DNA of 20,112 nt from the IMG/VR virus record IMGVR_UViG_3300006329_000093, positions 1 to 20,112 of that record, one strand, 5' to 3'. Position 1 is the stretch's first letter, and each line of letters starts with the position of its first letter. The notes beneath the pieces were generated by a model. The model worked only from the letters and a program-made list of their open reading frames with translations, was not told the DNA's origin and searched no databases. Position numbers and translations under genes: made by a program. Below, piece after piece: positions 6,128 to 11,894 of this stretch. This stretch comes from a virus.

Positions 6128-6147
6128 CCTATTTTGTTTGCTATCAT
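6120..6147 (+). promoter_or_regulatory. Putative extended -10 promoter for the VWA gene
   Basis: TGCTATCAT (6139-6147) has the TGn extension next to TATCAT. TTGGCT at 6120-6125 is a possible -35 at a 16-nt spacing, and it overlaps the gp46 stop region. The same TTGCTATCAT string with a 16-nt spacer occurs before the CobS-like gene (9047-9074), which raises confidence in both. Confidence 0.5.
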
Positions 6148-6169
6148 AGGTATACAAACAAAGAAAAGC

Positions 6170-8449
6170 ATGTACGATTACTACACAAGAGATTTGACAA
6201 GACAAGAGATTAAAGGAAACCTTGCACGTCTGCTCGCTACAGAAAACCTTATTGTTGAGCACAGAGGTGATATTCCTACTGCTTCTTTTGATGTAGATCG
6301 TAGGGTACTTCAACTTCCTCAGTGGGATAAAGCATCTGGTCAAGTTTATGACATGTTAGTTGGTCATGAAGTTGGTCATGCTCTTTATACTCCCAACGAA
6401 GATTACACTGACTATGTTCAGTGTCCAATGGATTATGTGAATGTCGTTGAAGATGTTCGCATCGAGAAACTTATGAAGCGTAAGTATCCTGGTCTTAAGA
6501 AGAGTTTCAATGCAGGTTACAAAGAACTTAATGAGCAAGATTTCTTCCAAGTTGAAGGTGTAAACTACAGTACAGTTTTATTCATCGATAGAATAAATCT
6601 TCACTACAAACTTGGTCCTTCTGCAATGGTTCCTTTCACTGAAGCAGAGAAGGTCTTTGTTAATAGAGTTGCAGAGACAGAAACCTTTGAAGAAGTATGT
6701 GCTCTAGCAGGTGAGATTTACGGTAAGCAGAAAGAAGAGCAAGAGAAACTTCAGAGTGCAGAAGTTCCTGTACCTCAAAATGGTGGACAGGAAGAAGGTG
6801 ATGTTAAAGATGGTGAAGAGCAGCAGTATCAAACACCTAAGAAAGGTAACAATGATGAGAAAGAGAAAGCAGATCTAGATACACCTTCATATAATAAGAA
6901 AAAGGATGAGAAAAAGGATGATCAAAATAGTGAGCAAGGTCAAACCTCTGGTGCTTCTGGTGGTTCTGCTGGTGCAGAAGGATCTGCTGGTCCTCAAGAC
7001 ATTGATTCTGCTAAGACACAACAATCTTTTGACTCTGCTGCATCAGGTCTCAGCACACAAAGTAAGCACAACATTGGTTATGTAGAAATTCCTTCTACAT
7101 TAAAGTTAGATGATTACCTTGTAGACTGGGAAGAAGTTCATAATTGGATTGATAATCGTTTTTCTCAATATCCAGAACCACAAGAATCTAGGGGTTCTGA
7201 TGGTACTTTATACTGGAAGCAACTAGGTCTTGCTGATGCAGATGCTGACTATAAAGAGTATAGACAATCAGCACAGAAAGAAGTAAATTATCTTGTAAAA
7301 GAATTCGAGTGTAGAAAATCAGCATCTGCATATGCACGTGCTTCTGTTTCAAAGACTGGAGTTATTGATACAACAAAGCTTCATACTTACATGTACAATG
7401 AAGACATCTTTAAAAAGATCTCTGTAGTACCTGATGGTAAGAATCATGGTTTACTATTCCTTCTTGACTGGTCTGGTTCTATGGGTGATCAAATCCATGC
7501 AACCTTGAAGCAGATCTTAAACTTGACAGCATTCTGTAAAAAGGTTAATATACCTTTTGAAGTATATGCCTTCACAAATGAGTGGAGAGTTGTCCAAATG
7601 ATTAAGGACAACAATCCCGAAGCAAGTTCTTACTGGTATCACGAAGATCGTGATTCAAATACACCTGTAGATGGTGAGATTTACATCCGTAAAGGTGAGT
7701 TCAACCTTATGAATATTATCTCCTCTCGTAGTAACACACGTGACTATGAAAGGCAGTGTAAGAATATGTATCGTTGCACCTATGCATTTGATCATCGTGG
7801 AAATTCCTACCAGATTCCAGAAGGATTACAACTATCTGGAACACCATTAAATGAAGCAGTAGTTATGCTTAACTACATCATTCCATCTTTCAGAAAGAAG
7901 AATGATTTAGAGAAAGTAAACGTATGCATTCTTACAGATGGTGAAGGAGCATGTTGTGGTTACGGTAGGAAGAGAACTCCAGATTATGATCCTCAAGAAA
8001 AACTTTACGTTAGTAAAATTGGTTCTTTAAACGCATTGCGTGATCGTAAGACTGGTATTGTATACAAACCAATGGATGATTCTTACAGTGCTGTAACTAA
8101 TCAGTTGATCACTCAAGTTAGGGATCGTAATACTGGTGTTAATGTTCTTGGATTTAGAATCCTAAGTGGAAGTCGTCTTAACGAATTCATCAATAGGTAC
8201 TCTGAGAATAATTACTCCTACGATAAGGTACTCCAAGAATGGAGAAAGAACAAATCCGTTATTGTTCCAAACCCACTTGGATACACTGCTCTCTATGCTA
8301 TACAGCAAACCGCACTTGACGCTGATACAGATCTCAAGGTAGAATCGGGAGCAAAGAAAGCAGACATCTCTCGTGCTTTCAAAAAAATGTTGAAGTCAAA
8401 GTCAACTAACAAGAAACTGTTGAATTCCTTTGTCGGGTACGTTGCTTGA
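6170..8449 (+). CDS. CobT-like VWA-domain protein with N-terminal HEVGH metallopeptidase motif
   Basis: A 759-aa protein starting MYDYYTRDLTRQEIKGNLAR. The N-terminal part holds a zinc-peptidase-like HEVGHALYTP (H66-E67-V-G-H70), with a candidate third ligand E94 in DYVNVVEDVRIE. Residues about 190-285 are a low-complexity E/K/Q/G/S linker. The C-terminal von Willebrand A domain carries a complete MIDAS metal site: D433-W-S435-G-S437, T558 (SGTPLNEA) and D590 (LTDGEG). VWA proteins of this class usually act with a MoxR/CobS-type AAA+ ATPase, and one is encoded just downstream (9107-10192). Cyanophage copies are often labelled CobT-like or peptidase. The combination suggests ATP-driven protein remodelling or proteolysis, or metal chelation, rather than proven cobalt insertion. 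I prefer ATG 6170 to the in-frame TTG at 6134, which precedes the likely promoter start. Confidence 0.85.
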   Translation: MYDYYTRDLTRQEIKGNLARLLATENLIVEHRGDIPTASFDVDRRVLQLPQWDKASGQVYDMLVGHEVGHALYTPNEDYTDYVQCPMDYVNVVEDVRIEKLMKRKYPGLKKSFNAGYKELNEQDFFQVEGVNYSTVLFIDRINLHYKLGPSAMVPFTEAEKVFVNRVAETETFEEVCALAGEIYGKQKEEQEKLQSAEVPVPQNGGQEEGDVKDGEEQQYQTPKKGNNDEKEKADLDTPSYNKKKDEKKDDQNSEQGQTSGASGGSAGAEGSAGPQDIDSAKTQQSFDSAASGLSTQSKHNIGYVEIPSTLKLDDYLVDWEEVHNWIDNRFSQYPEPQESRGSDGTLYWKQLGLADADADYKEYRQSAQKEVNYLVKEFECRKSASAYARASVSKTGVIDTTKLHTYMYNEDIFKKISVVPDGKNHGLLFLLDWSGSMGDQIHATLKQILNLTAFCKKVNIPFEVYAFTNEWRVVQMIKDNNPEASSYWYHEDRDSNTPVDGEIYIRKGEFNLMNIISSRSNTRDYERQCKNMYRCTYAFDHRGNSYQIPEGLQLSGTPLNEAVVMLNYIIPSFRKKNDLEKVNVCILTDGEGACCGYGRKRTPDYDPQEKLYVSKIGSLNALRDRKTGIVYKPMDDSYSAVTNQLITQVRDRNTGVNVLGFRILSGSRLNEFINRYSENNYSYDKVLQEWRKNKSVIVPNPLGYTALYAIQQTALDADTDLKVESGAKKADISRAFKKMLKSKSTNKKLLNSFVGYVA

Positions 8450-8474
8450 CAACTACCCCTTTCGGCATTATACT
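8446..8474 (+). promoter_or_regulatory. Sigma-70-type promoter upstream of the 176-aa gene
   Basis: TTGACA (8446-8451) and TATACT (8469-8474) are separated by 17 nt, the same hexamers and spacing as the gp55 promoter. The -35 overlaps the TGA stop (8447-8449) of the VWA gene. Transcription would start near 8481, about 24 nt before the ATG at 8505. The leader lacks an obvious Shine-Dalgarno sequence. Confidence 0.75.
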
Positions 8475-8504
8475 TACTCAAACAGGCCAAATCTCACATA
8501 ATCT

Positions 8505-9035
8505 ATGAGAAAACTCAAACAGTTGTGCAGAGAGTTTCGCCAATATGAAACTTTACATATTGGAAAGATACTTGTTCATGCACTAAAACAACAAATCCGT
8601 CAACGTCCAAATGGTACTCAGGTACGGTTTATCAAGAAGTCTGCTAAGTCATACTTCAGAGAAAACTATCCTGCTGCATTTGATGAGATGAAAGAAAAGG
8701 ACTGGGATGACGTAGCAAAACGCTTAAGTCATATCTGGAACACAACTAAGAACGAAGATCCTATCTTCGCAGAGTATAGGAAAACCTATCCATCATACTT
8801 TGCTGATAGTGCTCAGGTTTCAGAAGAGCAGATTAAACTACCATTCGATATTTACGATGAAGTAGTTCTACCTGTAGAAAAGAGAGCACCTATCCCTCAA
8901 CCTGCTTATGCTTTCAAGGCAGATACTACACCGTCACCTGACGTTGCATTCTCTGTTGTTGATCGTATCATAGATAGGTTTACTGAAGCAACGGTAACCA
9001 CTAAAGACGGTACAGTGATCCAGTTGAAGAAGTGA
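8505..9035 (+). CDS. Hypothetical protein, 176 aa, between the VWA and CobS-like genes
   Basis: Not recognised. It starts MRKLKQLCREFRQYETLHIG, a basic helical N-terminus, followed by another basic segment (QQIRQRPNGTQVRFIKKSAK). The middle is helical and aromatic (FRENYPAAFDEMKEKDWDDV, IWNTTKNEDPIFAEYRKTYP), and the C-terminal part is proline-rich before a final helix and strand (VVDRIIDRFTEATV). The abundance of basic and aromatic residues would suit binding to nucleic acid or to a protein partner, but there is no motif to prove it. It has its own consensus promoter (8446-8474) and is closed by a terminator (9041-9064), so it forms a single-gene transcription unit inside the AAA+/VWA module. 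That makes it a candidate accessory or regulator of the module. Confidence 0.85.
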   Translation: MRKLKQLCREFRQYETLHIGKILVHALKQQIRQRPNGTQVRFIKKSAKSYFRENYPAAFDEMKEKDWDDVAKRLSHIWNTTKNEDPIFAEYRKTYPSYFADSAQVSEEQIKLPFDIYDEVVLPVEKRAPIPQPAYAFKADTTPSPDVAFSVVDRIIDRFTEATVTTKDGTVIQLKK

Positions 9036-9040
9036 CACAC

Positions 9041-9064
9041 ACCCCCTTCACAGGGGGTTTTTTC
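9041..9064 (+). terminator. Intrinsic terminator
   Basis: ACCCCC (9041-9046) pairs with GGGGGT (9053-9058) around the loop TTCACA, and T-rich sequence follows directly (TTTTTTC, 9058-9064). It lies 5 nt after the stop of the 176-aa gene and would end its transcript, and read-through from upstream, before the CobS-like gene. Confidence 0.85.
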
Positions 9065-9074
9065 TTGCTATCAT
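9047..9074 (+). promoter_or_regulatory. Putative extended -10 promoter for the CobS-like gene
   Basis: TGCTATCAT (9066-9074) is an extended -10. TTCACA (9047-9052), which is also the terminator loop, stands 16 nt upstream as a -35-like hexamer. A promoter is expected here because the preceding terminator would block transcription of the next gene. It shares TTGCTATCAT and the spacing with 6120-6147. Confidence 0.55.
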
Positions 9075-9106
9075 TAGTACATAACAAATAAACAACTTCA
9101 AGACAA

Positions 9107-10192
9107 ATGCCAGCGAAGAATCCACTGACAACTCAGACATTGGTTAAGTACCTCACCAAGAAAAATGGTACAGATATAAATGCAGATCACGTACGTGAAG
9201 CAGCAGCACATTTCGGACTTAAGTATGCTTCTACTATAAAGAGGCTTCGTAAGTTTTATGTTAAGCGTGGAACATGGTCGTTGGAAGAAGTCAAAGAGAA
9301 TCTTGAGCGTCAGATCTCTGCTCCTGCTGTTATTCCACAGGAAGCACAGAACCTAGTACCATCAAAAGATCCAAACTTTGTTCCTTTCGGTAACTTTGCT
9401 GATGTAAAGAAAATTATCAACAGCAAACTCTTCTATCCTACTTTCATTACTGGACTCTCTGGTAATGGTAAGACTCTCGGTGTAGAGCAAGCATGTGCTC
9501 AACTAAATAGGGAACTAATTCGTGTTAACATTACCATTGAAACAGACGAAGATGATCTCATCGGTGGATTCAGACTTGTTAATGGACAAACTGCATGGCA
9601 CAATGGTCCTGTGGTAGAAGCACTAGAGAGAGGTGCAGTTTTACTTCTTGATGAAGTTGACCTCGCATCAAATAAGATTTTATGCTTACAATCTATCCTA
9701 GAAGGTAAGGGTGTCTTCCTTAAGAAGATCGGTAGGTATGTTAAGAGATCACCAGGATTTAATGTTATTGCAACTGCTAACACTAAGGGTAAAGGATCTG
9801 ATGATGGTAGATTCATAGGAACTAATGTTCTTAATGAAGCATTCCTAGAGAGATTCGCTTTAACCTTTGAGCAAGAATATCCATCTGTTGTAACAGAGAA
9901 AAAGATTCTTGAGAAGGTTGCTGGTAATCTAGGTGCTCTTGATCAAGAGTTCTGTGAGCATCTTGCTAACTGGGCAGACATCATCCGTAGAACTTTCAAG
10001 GATGGTGGTATCGATGAGGTTATCTCTACTCGTAGATTGGTGCATGTTATTCGTGCATTCGCTATCTGGCAGAATCGTATGAAGGCAATCAAACTTTGCA
10101 TCAATCGTTTCGATGATGAAACAAAGCAGTCTTTCCTAGATCTCTATGATAAGATTGATGCAGATGTAGAAACTGAAACTGAGGAGTCATGA
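9107..10192 (+). CDS. cobS: CobS-like (MoxR-type) AAA+ ATPase
   Basis: A 361-aa AAA+ ATPase of the CobS/MoxR clade. Walker A GLSGNGKT is at residues 116-123, Walker B LLLDEVD at about 179-185, a sensor-1 stretch IATANTKG follows, and LERFAL holds a candidate arginine finger. About 90 N-terminal residues (MPAKNPLTTQTLVKYLTKKN onward) form a helical region ahead of the ATPase core. In bacteria CobS and CobT drive cobalt insertion into hydrogenobyrinate in aerobic B12 synthesis, and cobS is a common cyanophage gene by annotation. No CobN-like chelatase subunit is present here. With the neighbouring VWA/HEXXH protein, a MoxR-VWA chaperone or protease role is equally plausible. The start ATG has no clear Shine-Dalgarno. 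The stop TGA (10190-10192) overlaps the next gene. Confidence 0.88.
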   Translation: MPAKNPLTTQTLVKYLTKKNGTDINADHVREAAAHFGLKYASTIKRLRKFYVKRGTWSLEEVKENLERQISAPAVIPQEAQNLVPSKDPNFVPFGNFADVKKIINSKLFYPTFITGLSGNGKTLGVEQACAQLNRELIRVNITIETDEDDLIGGFRLVNGQTAWHNGPVVEALERGAVLLLDEVDLASNKILCLQSILEGKGVFLKKIGRYVKRSPGFNVIATANTKGKGSDDGRFIGTNVLNEAFLERFALTFEQEYPSVVTEKKILEKVAGNLGALDQEFCEHLANWADIIRRTFKDGGIDEVISTRRLVHVIRAFAIWQNRMKAIKLCINRFDDETKQSFLDLYDKIDADVETETEES

Positions 10193-10353
10193 TGAAGACA
10201 GGTGATTGTAGGTTCATAGGCAGCATCGTATCCCTTAAGGGGGGTGCTGCCAGAGTCCAGAAAGTCCATGATGATAAAATCACTGTGGTAAAACTTGACG
10301 GAACTCCAAAAGAGTGTTATTATGAAGAGATACAATATGTATGGACACCTTGA
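10192..10353 (+). CDS. Hypothetical small protein, 53 aa
   Basis: GAGGAG at 10181-10186 gives a strong ribosome binding site 5 nt before ATG 10192 (an ATG at 10189 is too close). The product starts MKTGDCRFIGSIVSLKGGAA and continues RVQKVHDDKITVVKLDGTPK, then ECYYEEIQYVWTP. It looks like a small all-beta SH3-like barrel with alternating hydrophobic residues. It overlaps the CobS-like stop and runs 13 nt into the DUF3310 gene, so it sits in a tight translational chain. No function can be assigned. A strong hairpin lies inside its coding sequence (10219-10251). Confidence 0.75.
   Translation: MKTGDCRFIGSIVSLKGGAARVQKVHDDKITVVKLDGTPKECYYEEIQYVWTP
10219..10251 (+). repeat. Inverted repeat / RNA hairpin inside the 53-aa gene
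   Basis: GGCAGCA (10219-10225) pairs perfectly with TGCTGCC (10245-10251). Between them the perfect palindrome CCCTTAAGGG (10232-10241) gives an inner stem with a TTAA loop. The resulting hairpin lies in the coding sequence upstream of DUF3310 and gp45 and could affect mRNA stability or processing. No T-run follows, so it is not a standard terminator. Confidence 0.55.
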
Positions 10354-10658
10354 AGTATAACGAAGACCAACTCATCAAAGAGATTCATGACTATATCAGT
10401 CAAACCTACAGAGGACACTACTCTGCTGGTAATGTACAAACACTTGACCTCATTGATTCTGTAGGAGACGCTGAAGCATTCTGTAGAAGCAATGTTCTGA
10501 AATATGCTTCACGATATGATCGTAAAGGATCAGCACGTAAAGATATTATTAAAATTATTCACTATGGAATTCTCCTTCTACACTTCAATGACAAACGAGC
10601 AGCAGCAGACCCTGCCCCCACTGGTTCCACCTCCTTCACCGTTGACTATGACAAGTAA
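10341..10658 (+). CDS. DUF3310-type protein
   Basis: A 105-aa protein matching the pattern of the phage DUF3310 family: a short N-terminal helix, then HYSAGNVQTLDLIDSVGDAE, then FCRSNVLKYASRYDRKGSAR, then DIIKIIHYGILLL. The N-x-x-KYxxRxxxKG...D...I order is diagnostic. Some annotation pipelines call the family nucleotide kinase, but no P-loop is present, so I would not use that name. The C-terminal tail (AAADPAPTGSTSFTVDYDK) is low complexity. The start overlaps the 53-aa gene, and the stop overlaps the gp45 start by 11 nt, which suggests co-translation with the sliding clamp. Its physiological role is not established. Confidence 0.8.
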   Translation: MDTLKYNEDQLIKEIHDYISQTYRGHYSAGNVQTLDLIDSVGDAEAFCRSNVLKYASRYDRKGSARKDIIKIIHYGILLLHFNDKRAAADPAPTGSTSFTVDYDK

Positions 10659-11322
10659 AGTAACTCTATCGACACAAACATTAAACGTACTTAAAAATTA
10701 TAGTACGATCAATTCTTCTATTGTTTTTAGGAAAGGTAATGTCATCAGAACCATCAGCAATGCAGAGAACATACTCGCTAAGTACACCTGCGAAGAAAGC
10801 TTTCCAACTGACTTCGCTATATATGATCTTGGCCAGTTTCTTTCAGGTATCTCTCTGTTTGTCAATCCTCAACTGGACTTCACCTCTGGGGATTTTGTCA
10901 CTATTCGTAGCGGTGGTCGCTCTGCTAAGTATTATTTTAGTGACCCTGAGATTACGCTCAAGTCTGCACCAGAAAAGAATGTAAAATTTCCTGGTGGAGA
11001 TCTCTCCTTCAACATTACTGCTGAAGATTTGTTTGCTCTACAGAAAGCATCATCTGTATATGATCTACCTGATCTTACATTTGATACTACTAAAGGAAAG
11101 ATCAAATTGATTCTTAGAGACAAGGAGAATGATACCAGTAATACATTTGAACAAGATGTTAGTGGTGGTGCTGTATTCGAAGGTGAGTTTTCTCTTGATG
11201 TTAAGATTGAGAACATTAGATTAGTACCAGGTAATTATGCTGTGAAGGTATCTTCTCAGTTGATTTCTGAGTGGACTAATCTTGATACAGATCTTACATA
11301 TTATATCGCATTGGAACCTTGA
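10648..11322 (+). CDS. 45: Sliding clamp gp45
   Basis: A 224-aa protein very close in length to T4 gp45 (228). It is the ring-shaped trimeric processivity factor of the phage polymerase and, in T4, the mobile activator of late transcription. The sequence starts MTSKVTLSTQTLNVLKNYST and carries clamp-like stretches: INSSIVFRKGNVIRTIS, AIYDLGQFLSGISLF and VPGNYAVKVSSQLISEW. I chose ATG 10648 because this start gives the T4-like N-terminus; an in-frame ATG at 10504 would add 48 residues encoded inside the DUF3310 gene. Its TGA overlaps a TTG start of the following oxygenase gene (TTGA). The clamp loader subunits gp44 and gp62 are encoded nearby but not contiguously. Confidence 0.9.
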   Translation: MTSKVTLSTQTLNVLKNYSTINSSIVFRKGNVIRTISNAENILAKYTCEESFPTDFAIYDLGQFLSGISLFVNPQLDFTSGDFVTIRSGGRSAKYYFSDPEITLKSAPEKNVKFPGGDLSFNITAEDLFALQKASSVYDLPDLTFDTTKGKIKLILRDKENDTSNTFEQDVSGGAVFEGEFSLDVKIENIRLVPGNYAVKVSSQLISEWTNLDTDLTYYIALEP

Positions 11323-11894
11323 GTTTAAAATATCCTCATCTTAAAGATTACATTTTCAAAATGAATCTTCTACCAGAGGATGTATGTGATAATGTAATAA
11401 AAAGATTAGAAAGAAAACCTAAGTGGGAAGATCACGGTTGGTACGATGCAAAGGAACAATCTTCTTATAGTAAAGGAGATTTTCAAACAGTAAAGAATGA
11501 CAAGTGTCGCCAGAAAGTCTTCCCATATATTAGGGATCTCTGTATCGAATATAACAAAAAGTATTTTGTTAAAGAGAATACCAATTCTGATATTTTCTGG
11601 TCAACTACAGGTGACATGAAGTTCAACAAGTATTCTGTTGGTGAATCTATTGAACCACACCACGATCATATTCATGATATGTTTGATGGTAAGGTTCGTG
11701 GTATTCCTACCACCAGTCTCATTGGTGTACTTAATGATGATTATGAAGGAGGAGAACTACTCTTCTGGAATGAGTATCGGGTTGATTTGAAGAAGGGTGA
11801 CGTTGTTGCGTTTCCTTCTGTGTTTTTATTCCCACACGAAGTCACGACAGTGACAGGGGGTATACGTTATTCTTGGGTTACCTGGTGCGTTTAA
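11319..11894 (+). CDS. 2OG-Fe(II) oxygenase, prolyl-4-hydroxylase-like
   Basis: A 191-aa double-stranded beta-helix dioxygenase. The iron ligands are visible as H114-x-D116 (EPHHDHIHD) and H173 (LFPHEV), with R183 (GGIRYSW) as the 2-oxoglutarate anchor. The motif KYSVGESIEPH and the strand YEGGELLFW are typical of P4H-type enzymes. The substrate is unknown: peptidyl proline, another amino acid or a nucleobase are all possible. The start is uncertain. TTG 11319 overlaps the gp45 stop and gives MSLKYPHLKDYIFKMN, which looks like a natural N-terminus, while the first ATG (11361) would remove 14 residues. The gene separates gp45 from gp44, which are adjacent in T4. The stop overlaps the gp44 ATG (TAATG). 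Confidence 0.85.
   Translation: MSLKYPHLKDYIFKMNLLPEDVCDNVIKRLERKPKWEDHGWYDAKEQSSYSKGDFQTVKNDKCRQKVFPYIRDLCIEYNKKYFVKENTNSDIFWSTTGDMKFNKYSVGESIEPHHDHIHDMFDGKVRGIPTTSLIGVLNDDYEGGELLFWNEYRVDLKKGDVVAFPSVFLFPHEVTTVTGGIRYSWVTWCV

Follow-up and report, generated by a model that had tools for sequence, protein, structure and literature searches.

A CobS-like ATPase and an HExxH-VWA protein of a T4-like marine phage: probably a remodelling peptidase rather than a cobaltochelatase

Organisation of the locus

The window analysed here, 20,112 nucleotides of IMG/VR virus record IMGVR_UViG_3300006329_000093 (positions 1 to 20,112), is a 20 kb piece of a T4-like marine phage genome. Two of its genes are the subject of this report: one (6170-8449) encodes a protein combining an HExxH motif with a von Willebrand factor A (VWA) domain, and the other (9107-10192), usually labelled cobS, encodes an AAA+ ATPase. 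The original prediction, made from the sequence alone, had read them as a protein-remodelling or proteolytic system rather than a cobalt chelatase. The features of the two genes are as follows, with pLDDT and pTM denoting the predicted local distance difference test and predicted template modelling scores, and MIDAS the metal ion-dependent adhesion site.

6170-8449, + strand: zincin-like/VWA protein of 759 residues; phrog_459 "peptidase" (E 7e-263, residues 11-759), T4-GC 146
6170-6769, + strand: N-terminal metallopeptidase-like domain, residues 1-200; folded alone, AlphaFold (AF2) pLDDT 87, pTM 0.82
6365-6379, + strand: HEVGH, residues 66-70; H, E and H unchanged across 117/117 homologues and 15/15 aligned phage, plasmid and bacterial relatives
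6449-6460, + strand: candidate third metal ligand E94, with D95 and R97; 117/117 in the family, E in 14/15 distant relatives
6764-6991, + strand: low-complexity linker, about residues 199-274; pLDDT <50, unalignable in the family alignment
7232-8446, + strand: VWA domain with MIDAS (D433, S435, S437, T558, D590); structural matches to VWA domains that partner AAA proteins
9107-10192, + strand: MoxR/CobS-class AAA+ ATPase of 361 residues; phrog_249 "porphyrin biosynthesis" (E 8e-138)

The length of 759 residues is counted from an ATG, the mechanical open reading frame (ORF) beginning at a TTG at 6134.

The HExxH-VWA protein

Conservation of the N-terminal domain was assessed in 117 non-redundant homologues, with a median pairwise identity of 43% and a minimum of 17%. 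Residues H66, E67, H70, N91, E94, D95, R97 and G108 are unchanged in all of them, E94 being located in the segment VVEDVRIE, and the inner positions of HEVGH vary, with V68 replaced by C, I or T and G69 by S or A. Retention of H66, E67, H70, E94, D95 and R97 to this degree is much more than chance would give. Judged from the alignment, such fixed residues (H66, E67, H70 and E94) with variable flanks are the pattern of a metal site in use. The MIDAS residues, three of which belong to the segment DWSGS (433-437), are similarly preserved: D433, S435 and S437 in 116/116 covering sequences, D590 in 114/114, and T558 in 113/114. Every residue number that the original prediction had given for HEVGH, E94, D433-x-S-x-S, T558 and D590 is exact, and the long low-complexity linker that it had placed between the motifs is found at residues 199-274. 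Its concern that HEVGH might not be conserved among homologues is answered by the retention of HExxH throughout the family. Sequence searches of Pfam, NCBIfam and the PDB with the 759-residue protein returned nothing useful; Pfam CobT (PF06213/PF11775) does not match it, and matches 3/36 family members with a best E of 0.3.

Structure models were generated from an alignment built with the window and with viral-contig and genome-contig loci. The model of the whole protein has a mean pLDDT of 77 and a pTM of 0.74, and a Foldseek search with it retrieved VWA proteins only; the N-terminal domain was therefore folded alone. In the resulting model HEVGH is carried by helix 57-73 and E94 by the next helix (87-105), behind three strands, a succession that in the model is the zincin order. 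The 16 best matches of the domain in VIA-align are all HExxH metallopeptidases with Z scores of 4.8-6.4, led by selecase, ArdC, abylysin, BlaR1, jannalysin, IrrE/PprI and BepA, with Wss1 slightly lower; such consistency is telling for a predicted domain, although the scores alone are no proof of a zincin fold. Foldseek gave no match for this domain at E 0.001. The minigluzincins, including selecase, together with ArdC, IrrE/PprI and Wss1, thus share with the phage domain an HExxH helix followed by a helix with a candidate Glu ligand, but none has a sequence match to it, and the structural likeness is modest. In turn, the VWA domain is matched in VIA-align by the MIDAS domain of MDN1/Rea1 (midasin) and the VWA domain of NorD at Z 13.9-15.2, with other VWAs at 12.1 or less, so the model places it among the VWAs that dock on AAA+ rings.

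The ATPase

The ATPase matches the Pfam families AAA_5 (E 1e-18) and CbbQ_C (E 6e-5) and, in the PDB, midasin, CobS (E 5e-21), NorQ (E 2e-15) and CbbQ. The intact Walker motifs claimed by the original prediction are indeed complete: Walker A is GLSGNGKT (116-123) and Walker B includes D182/E183, followed by sensor-1 TANTKGKG, the arginine-finger region EAFLERF and sensor-2 STRRL, and nine divergent homologues show no change at any of these motif residues. TIGR01650, the CobS equivalog model, scores E 4e-19 and 69 bits, which does not reach its cut-off of 558.55. A helix-turn-helix at the N terminus (window 9107-9346, the first 70-80 residues) was considered and rejected, the likeness being one seen by eye and the HTH_28 and winged-helix matches (E 0.0093-0.1) falling below the cut-off; these weak matches hit the same residues in two ATPase homologues.

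Pairing and distribution

Almost all T4-like marine cyanophages carry the pair. The family occurs in 463 records of the phage collection, and the host-group counts of the two genes are identical (Synechococcus 365, Cyanophage 61, Prochlorococcus 24), which is the behaviour of an obligate pair. The pelagiphage HTVC008M has a close member of the family, and more distant versions occur in Escherichia and Salmonella phages and in IncC plasmids. The latter proteins, annotated as CobT-like or "VWA domain-containing" in IncC plasmids and SSU5-type phage-plasmids, have the same HExxH, E-D, linker and VWA elements with a CobS-like ATPase nearby, but are distant in sequence. A chromosomal cyanobacterial homologue was sought in 98 genomes and found in one, that one being a phage contig; the gene is thus no obvious host acquisition.

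Not all phage MoxR ATPases belong to the module, since in a Staphylococcus kayvirus and in Acinetobacter phage Mithridates a related ATPase has no HExxH-VWA partner among the neighbouring ORFs checked. Further HExxH-linker-VWA proteins are found in bacterial genomes (loci L167-L170), where they may belong to integrated elements; two of these loci, L167 and L170, have a CobS-like ATPase at a distance of 2-7 kb. A close relative of the cyanophage-type gene is also present on a 188 kb contig (L031) of a Nonlabens xiamenensis isolate assembly; this contig may come from a phage sequenced along with the isolate or from a T4-like phage of flavobacteria.

Relationship to CobT and the cobaltochelatase question

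The N-terminal domain is linked to CobT via plasmid and phage intermediates: in hhalign comparisons the phage domain matches these relatives (P 98.3, E 1.8e-14), which in turn match CobT (P 96.5, E 9e-10), while direct comparison of the phage domain or the full profile with CobT alone is insignificant. The SSU5 and Cyrano proteins match Pfam CobT (E 2e-37 and 6e-27), which the window protein does not, yet they retain HExxH. In the chromosomal CobT of Pseudomonadota HExxH is lost in 24/24 sampled proteins, and the equivalents of E94 and R97 are kept. Since HExxH is gone from these CobTs and kept in their phage and plasmid kin, CobT looks, on sequence grounds, like a branch of the family that has lost its catalytic function, and the phage proteins keep the site intact; a limited literature search found no paper stating this. 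The name is itself a source of confusion. The HExxH-VWA protein of Escherichia phage Cyrano (L177, 2380-4488) is annotated as dimethylbenzimidazole phosphoribosyltransferase, an unrelated protein that shares the name CobT, and a paper on Roseobacter phage CRP-810 falls into the same mix-up (PMC11288001).

The marine cyanobacterial genomes encode two PF02514 (CobN-family) proteins, and PF06213 CobT was found in 0/40 relatives, which leaves a vacancy and makes a hijack of host CobN conceivable there. However, no CobN is encoded beside the pair. As the original prediction had seen, there is none in the window, itself only a fragment, and PF02514 is absent from the 20 complete phage and plasmid records with the pair as well (0/11 and 0/9). 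The pair also occurs in elements whose hosts lack the pathway. It is established that E. coli does not synthesise the corrin ring and that Salmonella, which like E. coli harbours phages and plasmids with the pair, uses CbiK. SAR11, the host of HTVC008M, is B12-auxotrophic (PMC9296465). Because no CobN is carried, hosts without corrin synthesis are included and the ATPase score is far short of the CobS cut-off, the pair is very probably not a cobaltochelatase, and with HExxH kept, the suspicion that the B12 label of cobS misleads is very probably right.

Genomic setting in other elements

In Pseudoalteromonas phage XG4 (L016) the VWA and HExxH parts are encoded by separate genes in reversed order, and both, together with the ATPase gene, are located 5' of gp45-gp44-gp62-regA-gp43; the parts are separable, yet stay with the replication cassette. 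The XG4 ATPase itself (10296-11526) is divided between two ORFs, one with Walker A and the other with the remainder, and additional sequence is present where they meet; this may represent cooperating halves, a disrupted gene or a fault of the assembly. Elsewhere the pair adjoins the gene of DNA polymerase III alpha (SSU5, Cyrano, RHph_N1_10 and Cantare) or lies near a DNA polymerase gene (ICP2 and BS162P1) or primase/DnaB genes (Hanem), and on an IncC plasmid it flanks ssb-bet-exo. The ATPases of BS162P1 and GMA3 have no match to the ATPase family profile (A2). The whole maps of SSU5 and Cantare place the pair inside the replication block and outside the structural block. This setting beside polymerase, helicase, clamp and SSB-Bet-Exo genes favours substrates in replication or recombination over virion assembly. 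No papers tying the IncC/SXT copies to a function were found in the literature.

Proposed mechanism and alternatives

We propose, with a probability of about 0.6, that the pair is an ATP-driven MoxR AAA+/VWA remodelling machine in which a flexible linker joins the VWA partner to a zinc-peptidase domain that appears intact; the HExxH domain is predicted to be a metal-dependent peptidase that is probably active. In NorQD, a finger of the VWA domain enters the ATPase pore, and ATP hydrolysis rotates the VWA and stretches the linker to the N-terminal domain (PMC13036017). As the phage proteins match the layout of N-terminal domain, long linker and VWA, the same motion may by analogy apply to them. 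The CobS-like protein would form a hexameric ring on which the VWA domain docks as NorD does on NorQ; ATP hydrolysis would turn the VWA and strain the linker, and a bound target protein would be remodelled and then cut, or made cleavable, by the HExxH domain. This target would belong to the machinery of phage DNA replication or recombination, or stand in its way, rather than being a corrin ring or the virion, a tentative assignment to which we give slightly less than an even chance. That the two proteins form a complex, bind zinc and cleave protein, and what kind of substrate they act on, is what we infer for the pair.

Several points weigh against this proposal. In the comparison with zinc peptidases, which the original prediction had called for, no Pfam peptidase model matches the window protein, and the Z scores of the N-terminal domain, at most 6.4, lie in a range that a common arrangement alone can give. 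The replication block takes up about one fifth of the genome in SSU5 and Cantare, the two phages checked, and some lineages inherited the pair and its position together and are thus not fully independent, so the replication setting is suggestive only; in CRP-810 and GMA3 that context is weaker. Shared ancestry with real CobT also makes a chelatase-related role possible in B12-making hosts.

Among the alternatives, an improbable one is a metal-insertion machine of the NorQD type, in which the HExxH-E site would hold a metal and pass it to a client enzyme without peptide hydrolysis. NorQD and CobST, the best-studied kin, do insert metals (PMC13036017), the phage VWA is closest to that of NorD among metal-inserting systems, and H, H and E alone would bind a metal. 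However, a mere carrier would have no need of the catalytic E67, yet this residue is conserved as strictly as the ligands (117/117), and the NorD/CbbO-like and CobT proteins of insertion systems lack HExxH. NorQ-NorD (PDB 9qh6, 9qhd; PMC13036017) thus resembles the phage pair in its homologous ATPase, its VWA fold (Z 14) and its layout, but differs in the absence of HExxH from NorD-like matches and in having nitric oxide reductase as its client.

About equally improbable is a chaperone-protease that cleaves or assembles structural proteins of the virion, the role proposed for a MoxR-vWA-metallopeptidase pair in group 2.2 jumbo phages (Iyer et al. 2021, PMC7824862). That pair (ASV44728/ASV44729), compared by architecture and not by sequence, has the same two members and an identical domain order, with an N-terminal metallopeptidase fused to vWA; a MoxR-vWA pair is required for tail assembly of Acidianus two-tailed virus, as reported in the same paper, and an Hsp20 gene near the pair in cyanophages has been suggested to aid the head scaffold (PMC3037559). 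The pair described here, in contrast, is a cyanophage core pair in a replication cassette, found also on plasmids, and its location outside the structural block in SSU5 and Cantare tells against such a role. Virion assembly is disfavoured as a general role because IncC plasmids with the pair make no virions.

Least probable is a viral CobST that borrows host CobN as a hybrid cobaltochelatase and raises cobalamin, for instance for ribonucleotide reductase, as proposed in a paper that calls the "peptidase" label mistaken (PMC8651126): the ATPase is CobS-like, and the N-terminal domain and VWA are kin of CobT in the CobS-CobT system (PDB 9uka and related), but real CobT works with CobN and lacks the HExxH that the phage family retains.

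The AAA+/VWA/HExxH module of the original prediction stands as an observation, and its interpretation holds for the most part, but the idea is not new, the concept having been published for jumbo phages (PMC7824862). The present additions are the invariance test, the kinship with CobT and its loss of HExxH, the argument from hosts, the split genes of XG4 and the replication setting in phages and a plasmid. cobS belongs to the core genes of T4-like cyanophages, serves to mark their communities, and is commonly regarded as a marine auxiliary gene that boosts B12 (PMC2984593, PMC9983427, PMC8651126). If the pair is a remodelling peptidase, this ecological inference would be mistaken in the case of cyanophages, pelagiphages and roseophages, among others, and phages and resistance plasmids would share a function awaiting assay. 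The published readings, a hijacked chelatase (PMC8651126) versus a chaperone-peptidase (PMC7824862), conflict, and the loss of HExxH in true CobT as against its strict retention in mobile elements offers a testable way to choose between them.

We can speculate, with little confidence, that tailed phages and conjugative plasmids share one ancient class of ATP-driven metallopeptidases acting on replication and recombination complexes, for example by freeing DNA ends of proteins or removing cross-linked ones, with CobT a later dead offshoot and the phage "B12" genes the active parent form. In eukaryotes, cross-linked proteins are cleared by Wss1/SPRTN.

Surroundings of the pair in the window

By PHROG models, the neighbours of the pair in the window are SbcD/gp47 (3076), SbcC/gp46 (4382), clamp loader gp44, a Dam-like methylase and DNA polymerase gp43. 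The two genes are flanked by gp46 and the sliding clamp gp45, the clamp being 3' of the pair in relatives as well. As one correction, they are not adjacent here: an ORF and a terminator-like hairpin intervene. The features around the coding regions are the following.

6138-6152, + strand: promoter-like extended -10 motif TTGCTATCATAGGTA, 5' of the peptidase-VWA gene; predicted function
8505-9035, + strand: ORF of 176 residues, lineage-specific and outside the conserved module; seen in the six closest loci only
9041-9058, + strand: intrinsic-terminator-like hairpin with a T run after it, between the 8505-9035 ORF and the ATPase gene
9065-9079, + strand: promoter-like motif TTGCTATCATTAGTA, 5' of the ATPase gene; exact match to the motif at 6138

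Profile searches gave no significant family match for the 8505-9035 ORF. In other cyanophages the slot between the pair genes can contain a phrog_624 DNA-binding protein, plastocyanin or purine genes, and is thus an insertion hot spot. The motif at 9065 is also found in four close relatives. Exact matches to TTGCTATCATNNNTA occur only twice in the window, each ending 30 bases or less 5' of a start codon of the pair, and because these sole copies precede both start codons they suggest common regulation of the two genes, despite the ORF and predicted terminator between them. No expression timing for the pair was found in the literature.

Three further genes of the window were noted. A 2-oxoglutarate-Fe(II) oxygenase-like gene (11319-11894, phrog_61) with a TTG start is located directly 5' of the gp44 clamp-loader gene. 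The ORF at 1287-1889, beside replication genes, resembles orotate phosphoribosyltransferase (PyrE) by eye. Directly 5' of gp47, positions 2428-2994 encode a conserved phrog_605 protein, the C-terminal half of which is glycine-rich and possibly membrane-active.

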